Source: Candidatus Desulfofervidaceae bacterium | GTDB taxonomy: Bacteria > Desulfobacterota > Desulfofervidia > Desulfofervidales > Desulfofervidaceae | Direction: 5' to 3' | Assembly: GCA_027038965.1 (NCBI GenBank) | Contig: JALWFG010000008.1 | Location: forward strand, 1-64,000 | DNA length: 64,000 bases | In this document: piece by piece, positions 35,272 to 43,680 of the stretch | Position numbering within the stretch: position 1 is the stretch's first letter | Layout of the letters: each line of letters opens with the position of its first letter | Notes under the pieces: generated by a model | What the model was told of the DNA's origin: nothing | What the model saw: only the letters and a program-made list of their open reading frames with translations | Database searches by the model: none | Program-made: the position numbers and the translations under genes

Positions 35272-35415
35272 TGTGATTACCTAAAATTGGCAGGAAAATT
35301 GCATACTTCTAATGTAACCTGAGATGTTTTTTGTCTTCTAAAGACTGAATTTAAGGGTCATTTGATTTTCAAAGATTAAATAGTTATAATAACCAATATG
35401 GCTGGAGAAAACACA

Positions 35416-36003
35416 ATGGAGGAAAGGGAAAAAAGGCAACATATTAGAATTGGAGACACCCTCGTTTTTGAATATTGTGTGCTCTCTGAAGATGAATACA
35501 GACAGGAAAAGGAAATTTTTTATCAACAACCAAGCGGGGTAGAAAAAGTAAAACTAAAATATCCCTTTTTGTCCCTGCCCTTTTCTGGAGAGAAAGTAGA
35601 AGAGCAAATTTCTCATTCCAGCCTCAACCAGGTATTTCTAGGATTGCTGGTATCTATAAACGAAAAATTAGAGAATCTGTTGAAAATTATGGCCAAGAGT
35701 GGCAACAAAAAATGCTCATTACATTGTAAAGAACCTGCCTTTATTAACATTAGTGGAGCGGGAATAAGGTTAATCACTGAAGAATTTATGGAACCAGGAA
35801 CAAAGCTGAGAATTATTTTTTTACTCCCAATTTTCCCCACCTTTGAGATAAAGGCCCTAGGAGAAGTGGTTTGGACAAAACCAAAAGAAAATAAATATGA
35901 AGTAGGAATAAACTTTCTTGAAATTCATGAAGATGACAGAGAAGCCTTAATTTATTATATATTTAGGAGGCAACGCAAGCTAATTAGGGAAGGTAAAAAA
36001 TAA
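35416..36003 (+). CDS. PilZ-domain protein with N-terminal extension
   Basis: 195 residues. REKRQHIRI (residues 3-11) supplies an RxxxR-like element and FINISGAGIRLI (about 112-123) supplies NxSxxG, separated by about 90 residues of mostly helical sequence (VFLGLLVSINEKLENLLKIM). This resembles the YcgR/PilZ-like proteins in which another helical element is placed inside the barrel. It should bind c-di-GMP and opens the signalling cluster. ATG 35416 with GGAG at 9 bases is preferred to ATG 35398. Confidence 0.7.
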   Translation: MEEREKRQHIRIGDTLVFEYCVLSEDEYRQEKEIFYQQPSGVEKVKLKYPFLSLPFSGEKVEEQISHSSLNQVFLGLLVSINEKLENLLKIMAKSGNKKCSLHCKEPAFINISGAGIRLITEEFMEPGTKLRIIFLLPIFPTFEIKALGEVVWTKPKENKYEVGINFLEIHEDDREALIYYIFRRQRKLIREGKK

Positions 36004-36060: not shown

Positions 36061-36849
36061 ATGGCTACGGTTTGTCTTGTAGGCTTTCCTGAGATTGAAG
36101 AAAAAGACTGGATATCAAAATTGCAAGGCAGATTTGAGTGTGTGAAAGAAAAAAGTTTGTTTGCCTTAGTAGGCAACAAAAATTTGGATTGGATTTTTAT
36201 CTATGTACCTTCACCCGATGGCACTCAAGGCCCTCTTCTTTTAGGATTTAATACAGAAGGAGAACATTTTTTAAAACCTTTTGAGCTTGATGCCATTTTA
36301 AGTATATTAAAGGTAAAAGAAGCTGAAGAGCCTAAAAAAGCAATTTCAAAGGGAAAGGCCCTAGATTGGGAACTTATCCGTTCTTTTATTGATGCCACTA
36401 AGGAAGTCTTTGGAATGATGGCAGGTATTGAAGTTCAAGAAAAGGAGGTTCTTGAACAAAAAGGGGGACAGAATGTCTATGGCGATGTCTCAGGGATTAT
36501 TGGTTTTACAGGTCTTCAGGAAATTTCTGGAGAAATACATGGTTCAGTAGCCGTAACACTGCCTATAGGTTTAGCTCAAAAGATCGTTGCCAATATGCTT
36601 ATGTTAGAGCCAGAAGAAGTACAGGAAGAAGAAATGAGAGATGGAGTGGGCGAATTAATAAATATGATTTCTGGAGATGCCAAAGGCAAATACAATGATA
36701 AGTTCAAGATTTCCTTACCTACTGTGGTTACTGGTCAAAAACACACCATTGGAGGGGGAACTGAAATTGGGAGGGTAGTAGTGAAATTTACAGATCCAGA
36801 CAATGAAGAATTTTATCTGCAAATTTGTCTAGAAGAAAAAAATAACTAA
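36061..36849 (+). CDS. CheX-family phosphatase-like protein with extra N-terminal domain
   Basis: 262 residues. Residues about 105-262 form a CheX domain; the catalytic helix with the conserved Glu and Asn is seen in GVGELINMISGDAKGKY (ExxN pattern). CheX removes phosphate from CheY-P. Residues 1-90 are a separate alpha/beta segment (MATVCLVGFPEIEEKDWISK) that may be a degenerate receiver domain; no phospho-acceptor Asp context is evident. GGAGGGA precedes the ATG. A cheY gene follows after 15 bases and is the likely substrate. Confidence 0.78.
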   Translation: MATVCLVGFPEIEEKDWISKLQGRFECVKEKSLFALVGNKNLDWIFIYVPSPDGTQGPLLLGFNTEGEHFLKPFELDAILSILKVKEAEEPKKAISKGKALDWELIRSFIDATKEVFGMMAGIEVQEKEVLEQKGGQNVYGDVSGIIGFTGLQEISGEIHGSVAVTLPIGLAQKIVANMLMLEPEEVQEEEMRDGVGELINMISGDAKGKYNDKFKISLPTVVTGQKHTIGGGTEIGRVVVKFTDPDNEEFYLQICLEEKNN

Positions 36850-36864: not shown

Positions 36865-37233
36865 ATGAACGTATTAATTGTAGATGATTCTGCAACTATG
36901 AGAAAGATTATTTTGCGCACTATAAGGCAATCTGGCTATAAAGTAGATGAGGTATTAGAAGCAGGAAATGGTAAAGAGGCCCTAGAGGTGATAAAAAATA
37001 ACCAAGTTGATTTGGTCATGACAGATATTAATATGCCTGAAATGAATGGGTTAGAGCTTATTGAAGCCTTAAAATCTTCAGAGGCAACCCAAAACATTCC
37101 CATTTTGGTTATCAGTACTGAAGGAGCTGAAGATGTAGTAGGCAAGGCCCAGGCTTTGGGAATAAGTGGGTTTGTCCGCAAGCCTTTTACGCCTCAAAAA
37201 ATTGGGGAGACATTAAAGAGTGTCTTAGGCTAA
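36865..37233 (+). CDS. cheY: Chemotaxis response regulator CheY
   Basis: 122-residue single receiver domain. Asp7/Asp8 bind Mg, Asp54 in VMTDINMPEMNG is the phosphorylation site, Thr85 in LVISTEG and Lys106 in RKPFTP complete the switch. It should take phosphate from the CheA encoded 1.2 kb downstream and act on a flagellar or pilus motor; the CheX-like neighbours would dephosphorylate it. AGGAGGGAG precedes ATG 36865. Confidence 0.93.
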   Translation: MNVLIVDDSATMRKIILRTIRQSGYKVDEVLEAGNGKEALEVIKNNQVDLVMTDINMPEMNGLELIEALKSSEATQNIPILVISTEGAEDVVGKAQALGISGFVRKPFTPQKIGETLKSVLG

Positions 37234-37281: not shown

Positions 37282-38454
37282 ATGCCTGTAAAACTTGGTG
37301 TTTTAGCAAAAGAGCTTTTTAAAGAGACCAAAAAACTGCTCGGAGACCTGTGTGGCATAGAGTTTGGAATTGAATACCAACCAGGACCCCAAGGCAACAT
37401 AAAGGACATAGAAGAGATTTTATGGCCCGAAGCGTTTGTTACCCAAGTCAAAATTGATGAGATCTTAGAAAATGACTTTTGGATTCTGATAGAAAAAAAG
37501 GGAGCTATATTTCTAAGTAGCAAGATGCTCATGCTCCCAGAAAAGACGGCTGAAGATGCCTTAAAAAAAGGCGAATTAAACGAGTCTATGCTTGATGCTC
37601 AAAAGGAAATTTGTAATATGCTGGTGGGAATAATTGATGATATTTTTAGACAGCGGGTAAATGACGCTTGGCATCTCAGTCAAGGAAATTCGTTCTTATA
37701 TGAGAATTCTTCAGAGTTTTTACCTTCTCAAGAATATGTCAGCTATGTGGGAATAGTAACCACTGAGGGATTTGAATTTAAAATTGCCTTTATTTTAAGC
37801 AGGGCACTGGCAGACAAAATAGAAGGTAAGGTAGAAGAAAAATCCAAGGAAACCGCTGCCCCACCGGAAGAAGCTGAAATCCCGTCCCCAGAAGTTCCTT
37901 CCCAACCCAAACCCGATATATTTGAAACTTTAATTTTAAAGAATAGCCATGGGCTCACGGCCGAAGACATTGCTGAACGGGACTTTCCAGCCATATATCC
38001 AGAAGCCACCCTGACAGAGGCCTTGACCAAAATGGAAGAGGCCCATTCTGACTACCTCTTTGTTGTTGATGGGTTAAAGTTAATGGGAATTATAACCTTA
38101 GCAGACGTTAGAGGAGGCTTGAGCCCATTCTTGGAAGAGCCCTTTCGGGAATATTGTCGGCCTCAGGATGAGGCTACTAAACGATTTAAAATTTCGTGGT
38201 TTATGAACACAGAGGTTATAAATGTTTCTCCTGAAGCCAGTTTAATAGAAGTAGCCAAAGTGGCTGCTGAAGGGGCAAAATATTCTATCCCTGTATGCTA
38301 TAATGGTCGTGTTATCGGAGAAATCCCTGTTTCTAAGCTCATTACCATTTTGGCTAAACTTGCTTTTAGCGAAGAGAGTTCTATTCAGACAGAGGCAAAA
38401 CAAATAGAGGCCACTAAAGCTGCTATTGGAAGCGAAGCGAATAACCTGAATTAA
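37282..38454 (+). CDS. CheX/CheC-like domain fused to a pair of CBS domains
   Basis: 390 residues. The first ~190 (LLGDLCGIEFGIEYQPGP ... EICNMLVGIIDDIFRQRVND ... GIVTTEGFEFKIAFIL) have the fold pattern of the CheC/CheX/FliN-like family; the catalytic ExxN reads EICN around residues 109-112. After a Pro/Glu-rich linker (about 195-215) come two CBS domains (about 222-290 and 300-370; YPEATLTEALTKMEEAHSDYLFVVD and VINVSPEASLIEVAKVAAEGAKYSIPVCYNGRVIGEI). CBS pairs bind adenine nucleotides or SAM, so phosphatase or scaffold activity may respond to energy state. The fusion is uncommon. Confidence 0.65.
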   Translation: MPVKLGVLAKELFKETKKLLGDLCGIEFGIEYQPGPQGNIKDIEEILWPEAFVTQVKIDEILENDFWILIEKKGAIFLSSKMLMLPEKTAEDALKKGELNESMLDAQKEICNMLVGIIDDIFRQRVNDAWHLSQGNSFLYENSSEFLPSQEYVSYVGIVTTEGFEFKIAFILSRALADKIEGKVEEKSKETAAPPEEAEIPSPEVPSQPKPDIFETLILKNSHGLTAEDIAERDFPAIYPEATLTEALTKMEEAHSDYLFVVDGLKLMGIITLADVRGGLSPFLEEPFREYCRPQDEATKRFKISWFMNTEVINVSPEASLIEVAKVAAEGAKYSIPVCYNGRVIGEIPVSKLITILAKLAFSEESSIQTEAKQIEATKAAIGSEANNLN

Positions 38455-38466
38455 CGGAGGATGAAA

Positions 38467-41172
38467 ATGGGAGGTGCAGACCTAAACTCTATAATTGACG
38501 AGTTAACAATAAGTCTTCTCAACCTTGGACCCAAAAGCAGCAAAGAGGATTTAGAAGCCTTTAAAGGGGGCGTCCAAGCCCTTCTTTCTCATATAGACCC
38601 TTCTCAAAAGAATCTTTACACCATTGCCAGTTCTATATCCCAAAGCATAAACAACATTTTAGATAATCAGACCAGTATTGAAGAAGGGCTTCAGGTAATA
38701 GGGGAAAAAATATCTCTTTTGCAGAAGCTTTTAGAAGGAAAGGAAATTGATGAAAAAAAACTTATGAAGGATTTTTCAGAACTCACTCAAGAGAAACAAG
38801 AAGAAAAAGGCTCTCCAACCGTTGAAGATAAAGAAAATGCTTCCAAGGGGGAAAAGGTGGCTGAAAAAGAAGTAGCTATCACCATCAATCCAGAAGAGGA
38901 CTTAGAGCTTTACCAAGATTTCATAAATGAAGGAAGAGAGCATTTAAGCTCTATAGAAGTCAACATCATCAATTTGGAACAAAATCCTCACGATTTAGAG
39001 GTTATTAACACTATCTTTCGTCCCTTTCACACCATAAAGGGAATTGCTGGCTTTTTGGACCTAGAGCCCATCAATAAGCTAGCCCATGCGGCGGAAAACA
39101 TGCTTGATGCCGCCCGAAGCGGTGAATTTAACATCAACGAACAGGCCATCGATGTTATCTTGGAAGCCGTGGATATGCTCAAGGCCATGATTGATGATGT
39201 TGAAGCCCAAATAACAAGCGGCCAACCCACAGGGAAAACCTTTCCCGTTTCTGCCTTAATTAACAAGATTGAAGAGATAAAGACAGGACAAAAAGCACCC
39301 TCATCTCCTTCTAAACCCCAAGAGAAAGTAGAACAAAAAAAGCAAATGCCTTCTGAAACGTCTGTTATTGAAGGCGAAGAACTCAAAGTCAATTTTGAAG
39401 AAGATTTTGACCTGTACCAAGATTTCATTAATGAAGCTAGAGAGCATTTGAGTTCTATAGAATTGAATATCATCAACCTTGAACAAAATCCTCACGATTT
39501 AGAGGTTATTAACTCCATCTTTCGTCCCTTTCATACCATAAAGGGCGTATCGGGCTTTTTAAATCTAGAAGCCATTAACAAGCTTTCTCATGCGGCGGAA
39601 AACATGCTTGATGCCGCCCGAAGCGGTGAACTTAACATCAACGAACAGGCCATCGATGTTATCTTGGAAGCCGTGGATATGCTCAAGGCCATGATTGATG
39701 ACTTGGAAAATCAAATTACCACCAAACAACCCACAGGGCAAAAATTCCCAGTGCAGGAATTAATTAAAAAGATTGAGGCCATTTATCTAGTTGAAAAGAT
39801 GAAACAAGAGGCCCCTCCTCCTCCACCTAAGCTCCAAAAGACAGGCGAAATTTTAGTAGAGAAAGGAGTGGTTGAAGAAGATGAAGTCAAAGAGGCACTA
39901 GAAAAGCAAAAGACCACCTCTGCCAAGATAGGAGAAATCCTTGTCAAAGAGAAAAAGGTGCCGGCTAAGGAGGTAACCAAAGCCATAAGAAGTCAAAGGG
40001 CCGCTAAAACCTCTGCCACAATCAAAGTAGATACCCAAAAGCTTGATAGTCTAATTGACATGATTGGCGAACTATTAATTACCCAATCAATGATTAGACA
40101 AAATCCTGTCATTGAAGGTATCAAAGACCAAAAGTTGGTTCGAGACATCTCACAGTTAAGCCGAATCACCACAGAACTGCAAAAAATCAGTATGTCTTTA
40201 CGTATGGTCCCGATAAAAGAGACATTCCAAAAAATGATTCGGTTGGTCAGAGACCTGTCTAAAAAATCGGGTAAAAAGGTGCAACTTGTCATGCAGGGTG
40301 AAGAAACTGAAATTGACCGTAACATGGTAGAGGAACTTTATGACCCCCTTGTCCACATGATTAGAAATTCGGTGGACCACGGCATTGAAATGCCAGAGGA
40401 ACGAGCCGCCAAAGGAAAGCCAGAGATAGGGACAGTAGAACTTATGGCCTATCATAAAGGTGGTAATATTGTCATTGAGATTAAGGACGACGGCCGAGGA
40501 TTAGACAAAGAGAAAATTCTAAAAAAGGCCATTGAAAGGGGCATTATTCATAGCGGAGAGGACCTTAGTGACCAAGAAGTTTATCAACTGATTTTTAGAC
40601 CTGGCTTCTCCACCGCGGAAAAAGTCACCGAGGTTTCGGGCAGGGGTGTGGGGATGGACGTAGTCAAAAAGGCCCTTGAAAAGTTGAGAGGAAAGGTAGA
40701 AATTAAAACCGAAAAGGACAAAGGAACTACATTCATTATCAAACTTCCTCTCACCTTGGCCATTATTGATGGTATCATTGTTAAGGTAGGTAACGAGCGC
40801 TACATCTTGCCCACCATTGCTGTTCAAGAGGTCTTTCGCCCCAATAAAAGCCAATATAACACCTATGCTGAACAGGCAGAGATGATTAACGTTCGAGATA
40901 ATCTCTTCCCTGTCGTGCGTCTGCATAAACTTTTTAATGTAGAGCCCAAATATACCAAACCTTGGGAAGCCCTGATGGTCCTTGTGGAAAGCGAGAATGA
41001 ACGGAAATGTCTTATGGTAGATGATGTCCTTGGCAAGCAAGAAGTGGTTATCAAAAGTTTGGGAGAAGGGCTAGGAAGGGTAAAGGGAATTGCTGGAGGT
41101 GCCATTATGGGAGACGGAAAGGTCGGGCTAATTTTAGATGTAACTGGGATATTTGAAATGAGTGAAGCATAG
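38467..41172 (+). CDS. cheA: CheA histidine kinase with two HPt domains
   Basis: 901 residues. Order: N-terminal helical region; HPt-1 with phospho-acceptor His188 (FRPFHTIKGIAGF); HPt-2 with His356 (FRPFHTIKGVSGF); a short GspE-N-like segment (about 455-515, GEILVEKGVVEEDEVKEAL); dimerisation region (SLIDMIGELLITQSMI); HATPase with N-box HMIRNSVDHGIE (N634), G1 DDGRGLD and GRGVGMDVVKKAL; CheW-like C-terminal domain. No clear P2 CheY-binding domain. ATG 38467 is preferred to ATG 38461 because GGAGG is then six bases away. The histidine pair is a recent duplication at DNA level. Confidence 0.9.
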   Translation: MGGADLNSIIDELTISLLNLGPKSSKEDLEAFKGGVQALLSHIDPSQKNLYTIASSISQSINNILDNQTSIEEGLQVIGEKISLLQKLLEGKEIDEKKLMKDFSELTQEKQEEKGSPTVEDKENASKGEKVAEKEVAITINPEEDLELYQDFINEGREHLSSIEVNIINLEQNPHDLEVINTIFRPFHTIKGIAGFLDLEPINKLAHAAENMLDAARSGEFNINEQAIDVILEAVDMLKAMIDDVEAQITSGQPTGKTFPVSALINKIEEIKTGQKAPSSPSKPQEKVEQKKQMPSETSVIEGEELKVNFEEDFDLYQDFINEAREHLSSIELNIINLEQNPHDLEVINSIFRPFHTIKGVSGFLNLEAINKLSHAAENMLDAARSGELNINEQAIDVILEAVDMLKAMIDDLENQITTKQPTGQKFPVQELIKKIEAIYLVEKMKQEAPPPPPKLQKTGEILVEKGVVEEDEVKEALEKQKTTSAKIGEILVKEKKVPAKEVTKAIRSQRAAKTSATIKVDTQKLDSLIDMIGELLITQSMIRQNPVIEGIKDQKLVRDISQLSRITTELQKISMSLRMVPIKETFQKMIRLVRDLSKKSGKKVQLVMQGEETEIDRNMVEELYDPLVHMIRNSVDHGIEMPEERAAKGKPEIGTVELMAYHKGGNIVIEIKDDGRGLDKEKILKKAIERGIIHSGEDLSDQEVYQLIFRPGFSTAEKVTEVSGRGVGMDVVKKALEKLRGKVEIKTEKDKGTTFIIKLPLTLAIIDGIIVKVGNERYILPTIAVQEVFRPNKSQYNTYAEQAEMINVRDNLFPVVRLHKLFNVEPKYTKPWEALMVLVESENERKCLMVDDVLGKQEVVIKSLGEGLGRVKGIAGGAIMGDGKVGLILDVTGIFEMSEA

Positions 41173-41253
41173 AAGTAGCTAAGGGTTGATGGTTTTAAAT
41201 ATATGCTTAAGATGCTAAGAAATGCAAAAAAATAAATAAGGGGGGAATTGGGA

Positions 41254-41721
41254 ATGCGTTGGCGAAATTATGTCATTGGATGTCTGGTTGGAGGTGCATC
41301 TCTGGTCATCACCTGCAACTGGGTGCACGCAGGCAGTAAAACCTATGTAGGCTCTAAGAAATGTGCCGAATGCCATGAGCAGGAATACCAAAAGTGGAGT
41401 AAATATACCAAAAAGTCACACTCATTTGAAGATGTAATGAAAATGAAACATGATTTAACCCCTGAGGAGCTTAAGTCTTGCTATGGGTGTCATACCACTG
41501 GATATGGAGACCCTACCGGATTCAGAGACCCGGTGTCCACCCCTGATTTGAAGGAGGTAGGCTGTGAGGCCTGTCATGGCCCCGGCTCGGCCCATGTGGA
41601 AAGCAATAGCCCGGCTGACATCAAGGTCAAAATAACTATGCGGGACTGTGAACGCTGCCATAATGCCGCAAGGGTCGGGAACTTTGGGTTTAAACCCTTG
41701 GTGCATGCTGGGGCACATTGA
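41254..41721 (+). CDS. Tetraheme cytochrome c (cytochrome c554-like)
   Basis: 155 residues. A signal peptide (to about VHA26) is followed by four CxxCH heme sites: Cys37-His41 (CAECH), Cys76-His80 (CYGCH), Cys104-His108 (CEACH) and Cys132-His136 (CERCH). The spacing, with CEACHGPGSAH, matches the cytochrome c554 family. It should carry electrons in the periplasm. It lies between cheA and a heme-binding chemoreceptor, which suggests redox sensing or an electron outlet. ATG 41254 is preferred to an upstream TTG at 41248 because of GGGGGA. Confidence 0.9.
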   Translation: MRWRNYVIGCLVGGASLVITCNWVHAGSKTYVGSKKCAECHEQEYQKWSKYTKKSHSFEDVMKMKHDLTPEELKSCYGCHTTGYGDPTGFRDPVSTPDLKEVGCEACHGPGSAHVESNSPADIKVKITMRDCERCHNAARVGNFGFKPLVHAGAH

Positions 41722-41775: not shown

Positions 41776-43680
41776 ATGTGGAAGGCAGTTAAACAGAAGC
41801 TGCAGTTAAAGGTCTTTTTAACCCTGTTATTCACCCTTGGTATTACTATGGCAGCTATCGCCATAATAATAATTCATGCAATGATCAATGACAGTGTCAA
41901 TCAAATGACCAGATTGCTAGGGGAAACAGATAAAATCTTTTGGGCAGCTATGAAATTTCCCATGGAAGCTAACAATGAAAAAGTCATCAATGCGTTTTTA
42001 CAAGACATAAATGAGTATGCCAAGACGGACGTTGTCTTATGCGATAATGACCAAAGGATTGTATATACATCCAACCCCAATCTCAGAAATGCAAAGGTGT
42101 CTCAGTTCATCAAATCCAAACAGGCTTTAGATGAATTGAGCAAGGCCCTTCAAAATGGAACTAGCATTGAAGAACTTCTTCATGAAGTTACAGACAAGGA
42201 CCATTTTGTTTCCAGCGTTAAAATAATCAAAAACGAACCTGCCTGTTATCACTGTCATGGCTCAAGCAAGCCCGTGCTGGGGGCCTTAATTGTTAAAACA
42301 CCCGTCACTGCCACCTATGCCGCCATTGCCTCAGCCAGAAACAGGCATATCCTTTTAAGTATTGTTGGCATCATTGTCATTCTTATTCTCGTTTACTCCA
42401 TGCTTAATAAAACAGTCATTAAGCCTGTAACAACCATCACAGAGAAGGCCGCCATCATAGCAGATGGAGATTTAACGGTGGAGATACCTGTCACCAGTGA
42501 AGATGAAATTGGAAGGCTGGCGTTTACTCTTAATCGAACGGTTCAAAACTTAAGGCAACTAACGCAACAGGTAGCAGCGGCCGCAGAGCAGGTGGATATT
42601 GCCTCTTCTGAAGTGGCCACTTCTTCTCAGCAGTTGGCTGAAGGCTCAAGCGAGCAGGCGGCTTCTCTGGAAGAAACCACTGCCTCTATGGAAGAAATTG
42701 CTTCTATGGCCAAGCAGAATGCCGATAATGCCCTGCAGACAGACCAATTGATGAAAGAAACTAGTCAAGTGGCAAAGAGTACAGAGGCATTCATGAAGGA
42801 ACTTACAAATTCTATGGAAGACATGGCCAAACTGGCCGAAGAAACACAAAAGATTGTTAAGAGCATTGATGAAATTGCCTTTCAGACCAATCTTTTGGCC
42901 TTAAATGCTGCGGTAGAGGCCGCCAGGGCTGGTGAGGCCGGCATGGGCTTTGCGGTGGTGGCCGATGAAGTGAGGAATTTGGCTCAAAGAACTGCCGCCG
43001 CTGCCAAGGACACTGCCCAGCTCATTGAGCAAACTGTTAAAGGCATTCACACCAATTTAGACCTGGTAAAAAAGGTAGATACAGAATTTAACAAAGTGGA
43101 AGAATCGGCCTCCAAGGTGGCCAGTCTGGTGGCAGAAATTGCCGCTGCCTCTCAGGAGCAAACTCAGGGCATCAGCCAGGTGAATATTGCCCTTTCCCAG
43201 ATGGATAAGGCCACCCAGCAGGCAGCCGCCAATGCCGAAGAGCTTGCCTCAGCCAGTGAGGAATTGAAAAGCCAGGCAGCCACCTTGATTGAACTCCTCA
43301 GCCATTTCAAGTTCGGTAAAACTGAGCAGGCAGGCCCCAGAGAAATGCGGTATGTAACCCCGCCTAGGGCCATGACAACCTCAGCCAAGGTGGCCGGTGC
43401 CTTGAGTGCTGAAAGCAAACAACCAGAAAAACAAACATGTCCCAATCTTGCCAGATGTCCCTTTTTCAACAAGGTGATGGACAGCACCGCTGAAATCTTA
43501 AAAAGGAAATATTGCAAGGGAGACTACACCAAGTGTGCCAGATACCAGCGGAAACAAAAGGGTATGCCCGTTCCTGACGAACTTTGGCCCAATGGGCAAA
43601 TGATGAAAGCAAAAGAACAATCCAAGGAAGTGAACCCTGAAGATGTCATTCCGCTAGATGAGGATTTTGAAGAATTTTAA
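41776..43680 (+). CDS. Methyl-accepting chemotaxis protein with c-type heme site and Cys-rich tail
   Basis: 634 residues. Membrane helices at about 12-34 and 190-209 enclose a periplasmic sensor domain with one heme motif CYHCH (Cys157-His161), as in DcrA-type and Geobacter heme sensors. A HAMP domain (~210-262) and the methyl-accepting signalling domain with hairpin tip [25 protein letters not shown] follow. Beyond it is a cysteine-rich tail (about 553-600: [10 protein letters not shown] and [12 protein letters not shown]), perhaps a metal or Fe-S site. Coupled in position to the tetraheme cytochrome, it may sense redox potential. A good terminator follows. Confidence 0.92.

Follow-up and report, generated by a model that had tools for sequence, protein, structure and literature searches.

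Energy taxis is usually explained via receptors. FliY, a flagellar protein with a phosphatase domain, continues into a FliN domain, and FliM is not a phosphatase. In PMC3510030 the ExxN pair is described as required in CheX, and a role of the inserted Asn and an acidic residue is reported in PMC3035606. Fusions of CheA with CheC/CheX are in print for Leptospirae (PMC10542144). As in the protein analyzed here, a CheC/CheX domain is joined in those fusions to a signalling part in a chemotaxis system, but the partner is the CheA kinase, whereas it is a CBS pair in the present case.

The protein described here is encoded in the window, a 64,000-nt stretch (positions 1 to 64,000 of contig JALWFG010000008.1, assembly GCA_027038965.1) from a Candidatus Desulfofervidaceae bacterium. 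Its ORF of 390 aa has coordinates that match one ATG-to-stop frame exactly (Table 1). The first-pass annotation had described a CheX/CheC-type domain fused to a CBS pair in a chemotaxis cluster, and this was confirmed. The pairing of these known domains, CheC/CheX/FliY-type and CBS, is new; a CheX/CheC-CBS protein was not found in the literature by searches that fell short of most subscription papers.

The N-terminal domain (N-domain) was compared with the closest described proteins. Like the fusion protein, the FliY phosphatase domain of T. maritima (4hyn) has an ExxN pair in its second half; however, FliY also has a first-half ExxN, which is absent from the fusion protein, and where FliY runs on into its FliN domain (as named in the title of 4hyn) the fusion protein has the CBS pair. 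CheX (PF13690; 3hm4, 1squ and 3hzh) resembles the N-domain in its single DxxxExxN site, in belonging to the same superfamily and in having CheY as a neighbour. However, the N-domain is below the Pfam cut-off for CheX, and the operon of the fusion protein holds a proper CheX besides. The CBS pair resembled that of the A. fulgidus site-2 protease (5g5r/5g5x), which phmmer matched at 1.6e-6 with its best stretch over residues 230-358, but the alignment did not contain the inter-CBS linker of the fusion family.

Gene order and genomic setting

The fusion gene sits between cheY and cheA in a run of genes on the same strand which, by Pfam families, codes for PilZ, CheX, CheY, the CheC/CheX/FliY-like + CBS protein, CheA, cytochrome c and an MCP (Table 1). 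The gaps along this run, from the PilZ gene to the MCP gene, are 57, 15, 48, 6, 75, and 54 nt, in that order. The scan for promoters and terminators returned 12 and 13, respectively, in comparison with 15.6 and 10.8 in shuffled sequences, which is chance level. CheX and CheY were encoded immediately upstream of the fusion gene in all the loci with CBS members (5/5). Directly downstream, CheA was encoded in four loci, and convergent CheR/CheB genes were present in the fifth.

Table 1. Positions of the fusion gene, its parts and the neighbouring genes in the window
Feature	Position	Strand	Evidence
PilZ-domain protein, heads the gene run	35398..36003	+	PF07238 8.3e-12
CheX, true family member, with ~95-aa N-terminal extension	36061..36849	+	PF13690 1.2e-22; Foldseek top match 3hm4 CheX 3.0e-16
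CheY, likely substrate	36865..37233	+	PF00072 6.9e-29
Gene for CheC/CheX/FliY-like domain + CBS pair	37282..38454	+	ORF; architecture repeated in 3 further genomes of the order and one Desulfobacterales MAG
N-terminal phosphatase-like domain, residues 1-182, predicted FliM-middle/FliY/CheC/CheX fold	37282..37827	+	AlphaFold2 model; Foldseek, VIA-align; profile vs PDB
DAQKEICNMLVG, residues 105-116, DxxxExxN signature of CheY-P phosphatases	37594..37629	+	D105, E109, N112, G116 in 5/5 members
Variable linker, residues 183-222	37828..37947	+	7/40 identical to most distant member; pLDDT about 30-48
CBS repeat 1, residues ~224-277, GIITLAD (G-h-h-[ST]-x-x-D)	37951..38112	+	Pfam CBS; motif in 5/5 members
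Inter-CBS linker, residues 278-307 (LSPFLEEPFREYCRPQDEATKRF...WF)	38113..38202	+	22/30 identical to most distant member
CBS repeat 2, residues 308-362, motif Asp replaced by K/R	38203..38367	+	Pfam CBS second stretch; 13/55 identical to most distant member
CheA kinase, two Hpt domains	38461..41172	+	Pfam Hpt (2 stretches), H-kinase_dim, HATPase_c, CheW
Cytochrome c gene, c554-type	41248-41721	+	Pfam
Methyl-accepting chemotaxis receptor (MCP)	41776..43680	+	PF00015 5.7e-42

Flagellar gene clusters are present in the source genome (loci L136 and L137, gene names read by eye), and FliM and FliN were found with Pfam in 6/6 genomes of the order. The source genome codes for four MCPs and for five CheW-domain proteins, two of which are CheA-sized, one of these being the CheA of the window. 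The second che locus of this genome (L135) codes for CheW, PilZ, CheR, CheD, HDOD, CheY, CheX, and CheB, and the genome has two CheX proteins. From the flagellar clusters, FliM and FliN, the MCPs, the CheW and CheA proteins and the second che locus, we conclude that flagellar chemotaxis is the likely setting of the fusion protein.

Fold and signature of the N-terminal domain

First, the N-domain was examined by sequence comparison. The Pfam CheX model matched the fusion protein below threshold (14.1 bits against a cut-off of 27, E 0.05) and gave 20.1 and 19.6 bits for the G136 member (same cut-off of 27); among the relatives scanned singly, those of L096 (40.2) and L101 (29.0) passed the cut-off. 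BLASTP of the N-domain against the CheX of the window aligned non-corresponding parts and gave no homology signal. When a 12-row N-domain profile was compared with the PDB, T. maritima FliY (4hyn) was the top match (6.5e-5), covering almost all of the domain, and CheC and CheX were non-significant (0.38-0.45). With a 38-row profile FliY was again on top (3.1e-4), and CheX was at 0.08. Profile-profile comparison of the N-domain with the CheX sequences that share its loci gave 96.3% and an E of 1.6e-9, over columns 5-128 only.

The fold was predicted with AlphaFold2, using a model built from four sequences only. Residues 1-180 formed a block with pLDDT 76-95, and the remainder was mostly <50. 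Foldseek at E<=0.001 returned 33 PDB chains, all of which are, by title, flagellar-switch/FliM, FliY, CheC-like or CheX entries. The Z scores of VIA-align (range 11.7-19.4) were 19.4 for the FliM-middle domain, 18.1 for FliY (4hyn, 174 residues at 2.5 A) and 15.2 for CheC, whereas that for CheX was 13.7. The CheX of the window, modelled likewise, had a CheX structure as its best match (Table 1); its ranks 1-13 were CheX or CheX-sized CheC-like chains, with CheC, FliY, and FliM lower. The structural matches of the two proteins indicate that the N-domain, as modelled, belongs to the CheC/CheX/FliY/FliM superfamily and is nearer to FliY, CheC, and FliM than to CheX. The possibility that the N-terminal region folds as something unrelated to CheX/CheC was therefore not borne out, since AlphaFold2 and Foldseek gave it the fold of the CheC/CheX/FliY/FliM group, and the ExxN pair is retained. 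The "CheX" part of the label "CheX/CheC-like" given in the first-pass annotation has to be refined accordingly; the true CheX is the product of the neighbouring gene at 36061. A FliY fragment as the origin of the N-domain was rejected, because the FliN part is absent and Pfam found CBS alone C-terminally.

Over 38 N-domains of the fusion proteins and their relatives, the E of the signature was present in all 38, N in 36, and D and G in 37 each. Three domains have a broken signature, namely both copies of L094 and the single one of L111; N was lost only in the two copies of L094, a locus without CheX nearby. The fusion protein has a single ExxN, that of E109/N112, and in the alignment with FliY the first-half helix is without E and N where FliY has GEIGN.

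The fold matches included CheC, and among them the CheC of the CheC-CheD complex (2f9z), which would fit a CheC-like protein that binds CheD and alters receptor deamidation or methylation in place of acting on CheY-P. CheD is encoded in the other che locus of the genome (L135). However, CheD is absent from the run of the fusion gene, and the upstream neighbour is CheY in 5/5 CBS loci, and we regard a regulator of CheD as very unlikely.

CBS pair and linkers

The motif G-h-h-[ST]-x-x-D is the adenine-nucleotide motif of CBS domains, although CBS pairs often have other functions. The presence of a CBS pair at residues ~224-362 of the fusion protein is certain: Pfam CBS (PF00571) scored 61 bits (cut-off 24) in two stretches, with 1.4e-16 for the whole protein and 1e-17 for the isolated C-terminal part. 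AlphaFold2 modelled the pair at low confidence (pLDDT <60). It had been asked at the outset whether the CBS residues for nucleotides are absent in homologues, and the answer differed between the two repeats. The motif of CBS1 was kept in 5/5 members, that of the window included, but the motif Asp of CBS2 (position 352) was replaced in 5/5, by K, K, K, R, and R, and P stood for [ST] in 4/5. Since CBS1 keeps [ST]xxD and CBS2 has K or R for Asp, the pair is predicted to have one canonical nucleotide site at most.

We also compared the parts of the protein with those of the most distant member, L121. The identity was 40% in the N-domain, 44% in CBS1, and 24% in CBS2, and it was 73% both in residues 95-120 around the active site (19/26) and in the inter-CBS linker, residues 278-307 (22/30). 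Every one of the 12 best 28-residue segments started within residues 269-281. By these conservation figures the inter-CBS linker and the putative catalytic helix are the most constrained parts of the protein.

A constitutive phosphatase, in which the CBS pair binds no ligand and serves passively for dimerisation, would agree with the loss of the motif Asp from CBS2 in all five members and with the poor conservation of this repeat (24% in comparison with 44% for CBS1). Nevertheless, the CBS1 motif is intact in 5/5 members and the inter-CBS linker is conserved far above the protein average, both of which argue against a passive role, and we consider such a role quite improbable.

Distribution of the fusion protein

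The full architecture was recovered in 4/6 genomes of the order, source genome included, and in a fifth member outside the order, L121 from a Desulfobacterales MAG. With a single-protein query, 297 genomes of the phylum gave full-length relatives in the same order only, and the lesser matches were, by residue range, CBS parts or N-domains alone. In a 394-genome sample of the phylum, searched with lower sensitivity and with at most four candidates scored per genome, full-length matches were present in four genomes, that of L121 and three of the order; the best CBS-only match, among the at most four candidates scored per genome, had an E of 2.6e-16. In the class of L121 only 1/85 genomes, that of L121 itself, had the fusion at E<=1e-12. 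Named genomes, the sole coverage beyond the phylum, were scanned with short peptide patterns, which can miss relatives. The scan with an alignment query gave three loci, in a Candidatus Desulfofervidaceae MAG, a deltaproteobacterial MAG and the Desulfobacterales MAG of L121, and that with a single-protein query gave no match. These data showed that genuine CheC/CheX/FliY-like + CBS fusions exist but are rare. The fusion is kept in four genomes of the order and in one distant MAG, and its origin by an assembly or frame artefact was rejected for this reason.

Two genomes of the order were without the fusion gene. In G163, PilZ and CheX genes were present and the contig ended ~100 nt past CheX. 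In G038, a single contig from the same family, FliM and FliN were present, CheX was absent by Pfam and an N-domain protein was not found; this genome lost the N-domain module or never had one.

The five CBS members formed one group in the tree (100/99). The tree program warned that L121 is a long branch, and the CBS group joins the rest between long branches; its placement among the relatives is unsure. Acquisition of the CBS part, together with the linker, from another CBS protein was unsupported, since the linker was unseen in the 21 CBS loci of the phylum that were compared.

Relatives with a pseudo-receiver tail

The N-domain profile matched proteins at E<=1e-6 in 27/395 genomes of the phylum, of which 4 belong to the order and 23 do not. 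One of these 27 proteins, L095, was FliY-like (FliMN_C 3.7e-17) and was dropped, leaving 26. CBS was present in 4/27 N-domain members, which is the number from the order, and none was found in the pseudo-receiver relatives.

The other 22 loci (L092-L114, L095 left out) code for proteins in which one or two tandem CheC/FliY-like N-domains are followed by a C-terminal receiver-like domain. These N-domains are homologous to that of the fusion protein and carry the same signature; the proteins differ from it in ending with a receiver-like part that has no acceptor Asp and, in 12/22 loci, in having two N-domains. CheX and CheY were both encoded nearby in 19/22 of the loci. Pfam Response_reg matched 13/27 members at E<=1, and an alignment with CheY was made for each of the 22 tails. 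The phospho-acceptor Asp was found in 0/22 tails in comparison with 24/24 CheY controls, the residue at this position being V in 12, G in 6, E in 2, S in 1, and I in 1. In the acidic pair the first residue was never D and the second was D in 14 tails. A WTR...K-Y/F-G core was seen by eye to be common among the tails. In Pfam and NCBIfam we found no family name for proteins made of this N-domain and a pseudo-receiver. Because the receiver-like tail is present in 22 other loci and the CBS pair in one clade, the CBS pair stands in place of the pseudo-receiver, the C-terminal module having been exchanged.

Numbers of CheX genes and N-domains

The number of strong CheX genes was then compared with that of N-domains. 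A strong CheX was taken as one with E<1e-40 to a profile trained on most of these CheX, and weaker CheX-like genes in some loci were uncounted. The two numbers were equal in 23/26 loci, one with one or two with two; the exceptions were L094, L111 (CheX fragment only), and L114 (cut by the contig end). First and second CheX copies each formed one group in the tree (81/84 and 92/97), so the match represents few events, not 23. The broken signatures fell in the two intact loci without strong CheX (L094 and L111). Together, the match in number and the position of the broken signatures suggest that the N-domain and CheX may work as a pair.

The main rival to a phosphatase is a mainly non-enzymatic partner or scaffold of CheX. 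In such a protein the N-domain would form a pair with CheX, or would serve to dock CheY-P or, in the manner of FliM, the motor, and the tail would do no more than hold or position the complex. Receivers without acceptor Asp, such as the tails of the relatives, occur in docking parts. The equal numbers in 23/26 loci fit this explanation, as do the three broken-signature N-domains (two of L094, one of L111) in the intact loci without strong CheX and the structural closeness of the N-domain to FliM. However, the ExxN pair is intact in 36/38 N-domains and would be needless for a pure scaffold, the match in number represents few events, and three of the 26 loci (L094, L111, and L114) break it. We consider a partner of this kind possible, although doubtful.

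Proposed function of the fusion protein

The chances seem to us about even that the fusion protein is a CheC/FliY-type CheY-P phosphatase of a CheA-CheY-CheX operon, with an exchangeable regulatory tail, and that its CBS pair responds to a metabolite. In such a protein the N-domain would bind CheY-P and put E109 and N112 into the receiver active site, and the phosphoryl group would be removed, by a phosphatase acting beside the neighbouring CheX or jointly with it. The C-terminal module would be a swappable regulatory tail, taking the form of a CBS pair within its own clade and, outside it, of a pseudo-receiver. One adenine nucleotide or SAM would occupy the CBS1 site, and through the conserved linker between the two repeats the ligand state would be relayed, so as to stimulate or restrain, either to the phosphatase domain or to a partner. 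Swimming would thereby become metabolite-dependent. The gating of a phosphatase by AMP, ATP or SAM, which the first-pass annotation had put forward, is plausible as far as the sequences allow a judgement.

Several observations stand against a phosphatase: the CheX/CheC sequence matches are non-significant when taken alone, the motif Asp of CBS2 is lost, and the confidence of the CBS model is low. A third phosphatase is possibly redundant next to the two CheX proteins of the genome, and the N-domain is possibly a docking part, because its best structural matches are to FliM, a non-phosphatase. A more specific form of the phosphatase proposal holds that an adenine nucleotide or SAM at the single CBS site alters the lifetime of CheY-P, that the N-domain is an obligate partner of CheX, present once per CheX, and that the pseudo-receiver of the relatives gives another input. 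We consider this specific form unlikely.

If a CheY-P phosphatase does carry a metabolite-sensing tail, the energy or methyl-donor state would have a second entry point into chemotaxis, at the output and not at the receptor. The comparison also revealed a CheC/FliY-like family in Thermodesulfobacteriota, which is found beside CheX, in which the C-terminal module is exchanged, and which curated models label partially at best.

Other proteins of the gene run

The N-terminal extension of the CheX of the window (~95 aa, window positions 36061-36360) was predicted to form a small alpha/beta unit and has no Pfam family. The extension was present in the CheX of L115, L117, and L118 and missing from that of L116 and L121. 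A displaced receiver as the nature of the extension found no support: Pfam gave no meaningful family, and Foldseek with the whole CheX as the query gave, at E<=0.001, hits for the CheX portion or the superfamily to which it belongs.

The two Hpt modules of the CheA of the window are in tandem and very similar, and the counterpart in G136 (L117) has, as read by eye, a single Hpt in its visible part.

The receptor at the end of the run has a CxxCH motif before its second hydrophobic stretch and a Cys-rich C-terminal tail. It matched the Mcp40H-20 sensor family weakly (6.6e-5, under the family cut-off), and the c554-type cytochrome gene lies just upstream of it. Judged from these features, this protein may be a haem-bearing redox receptor.
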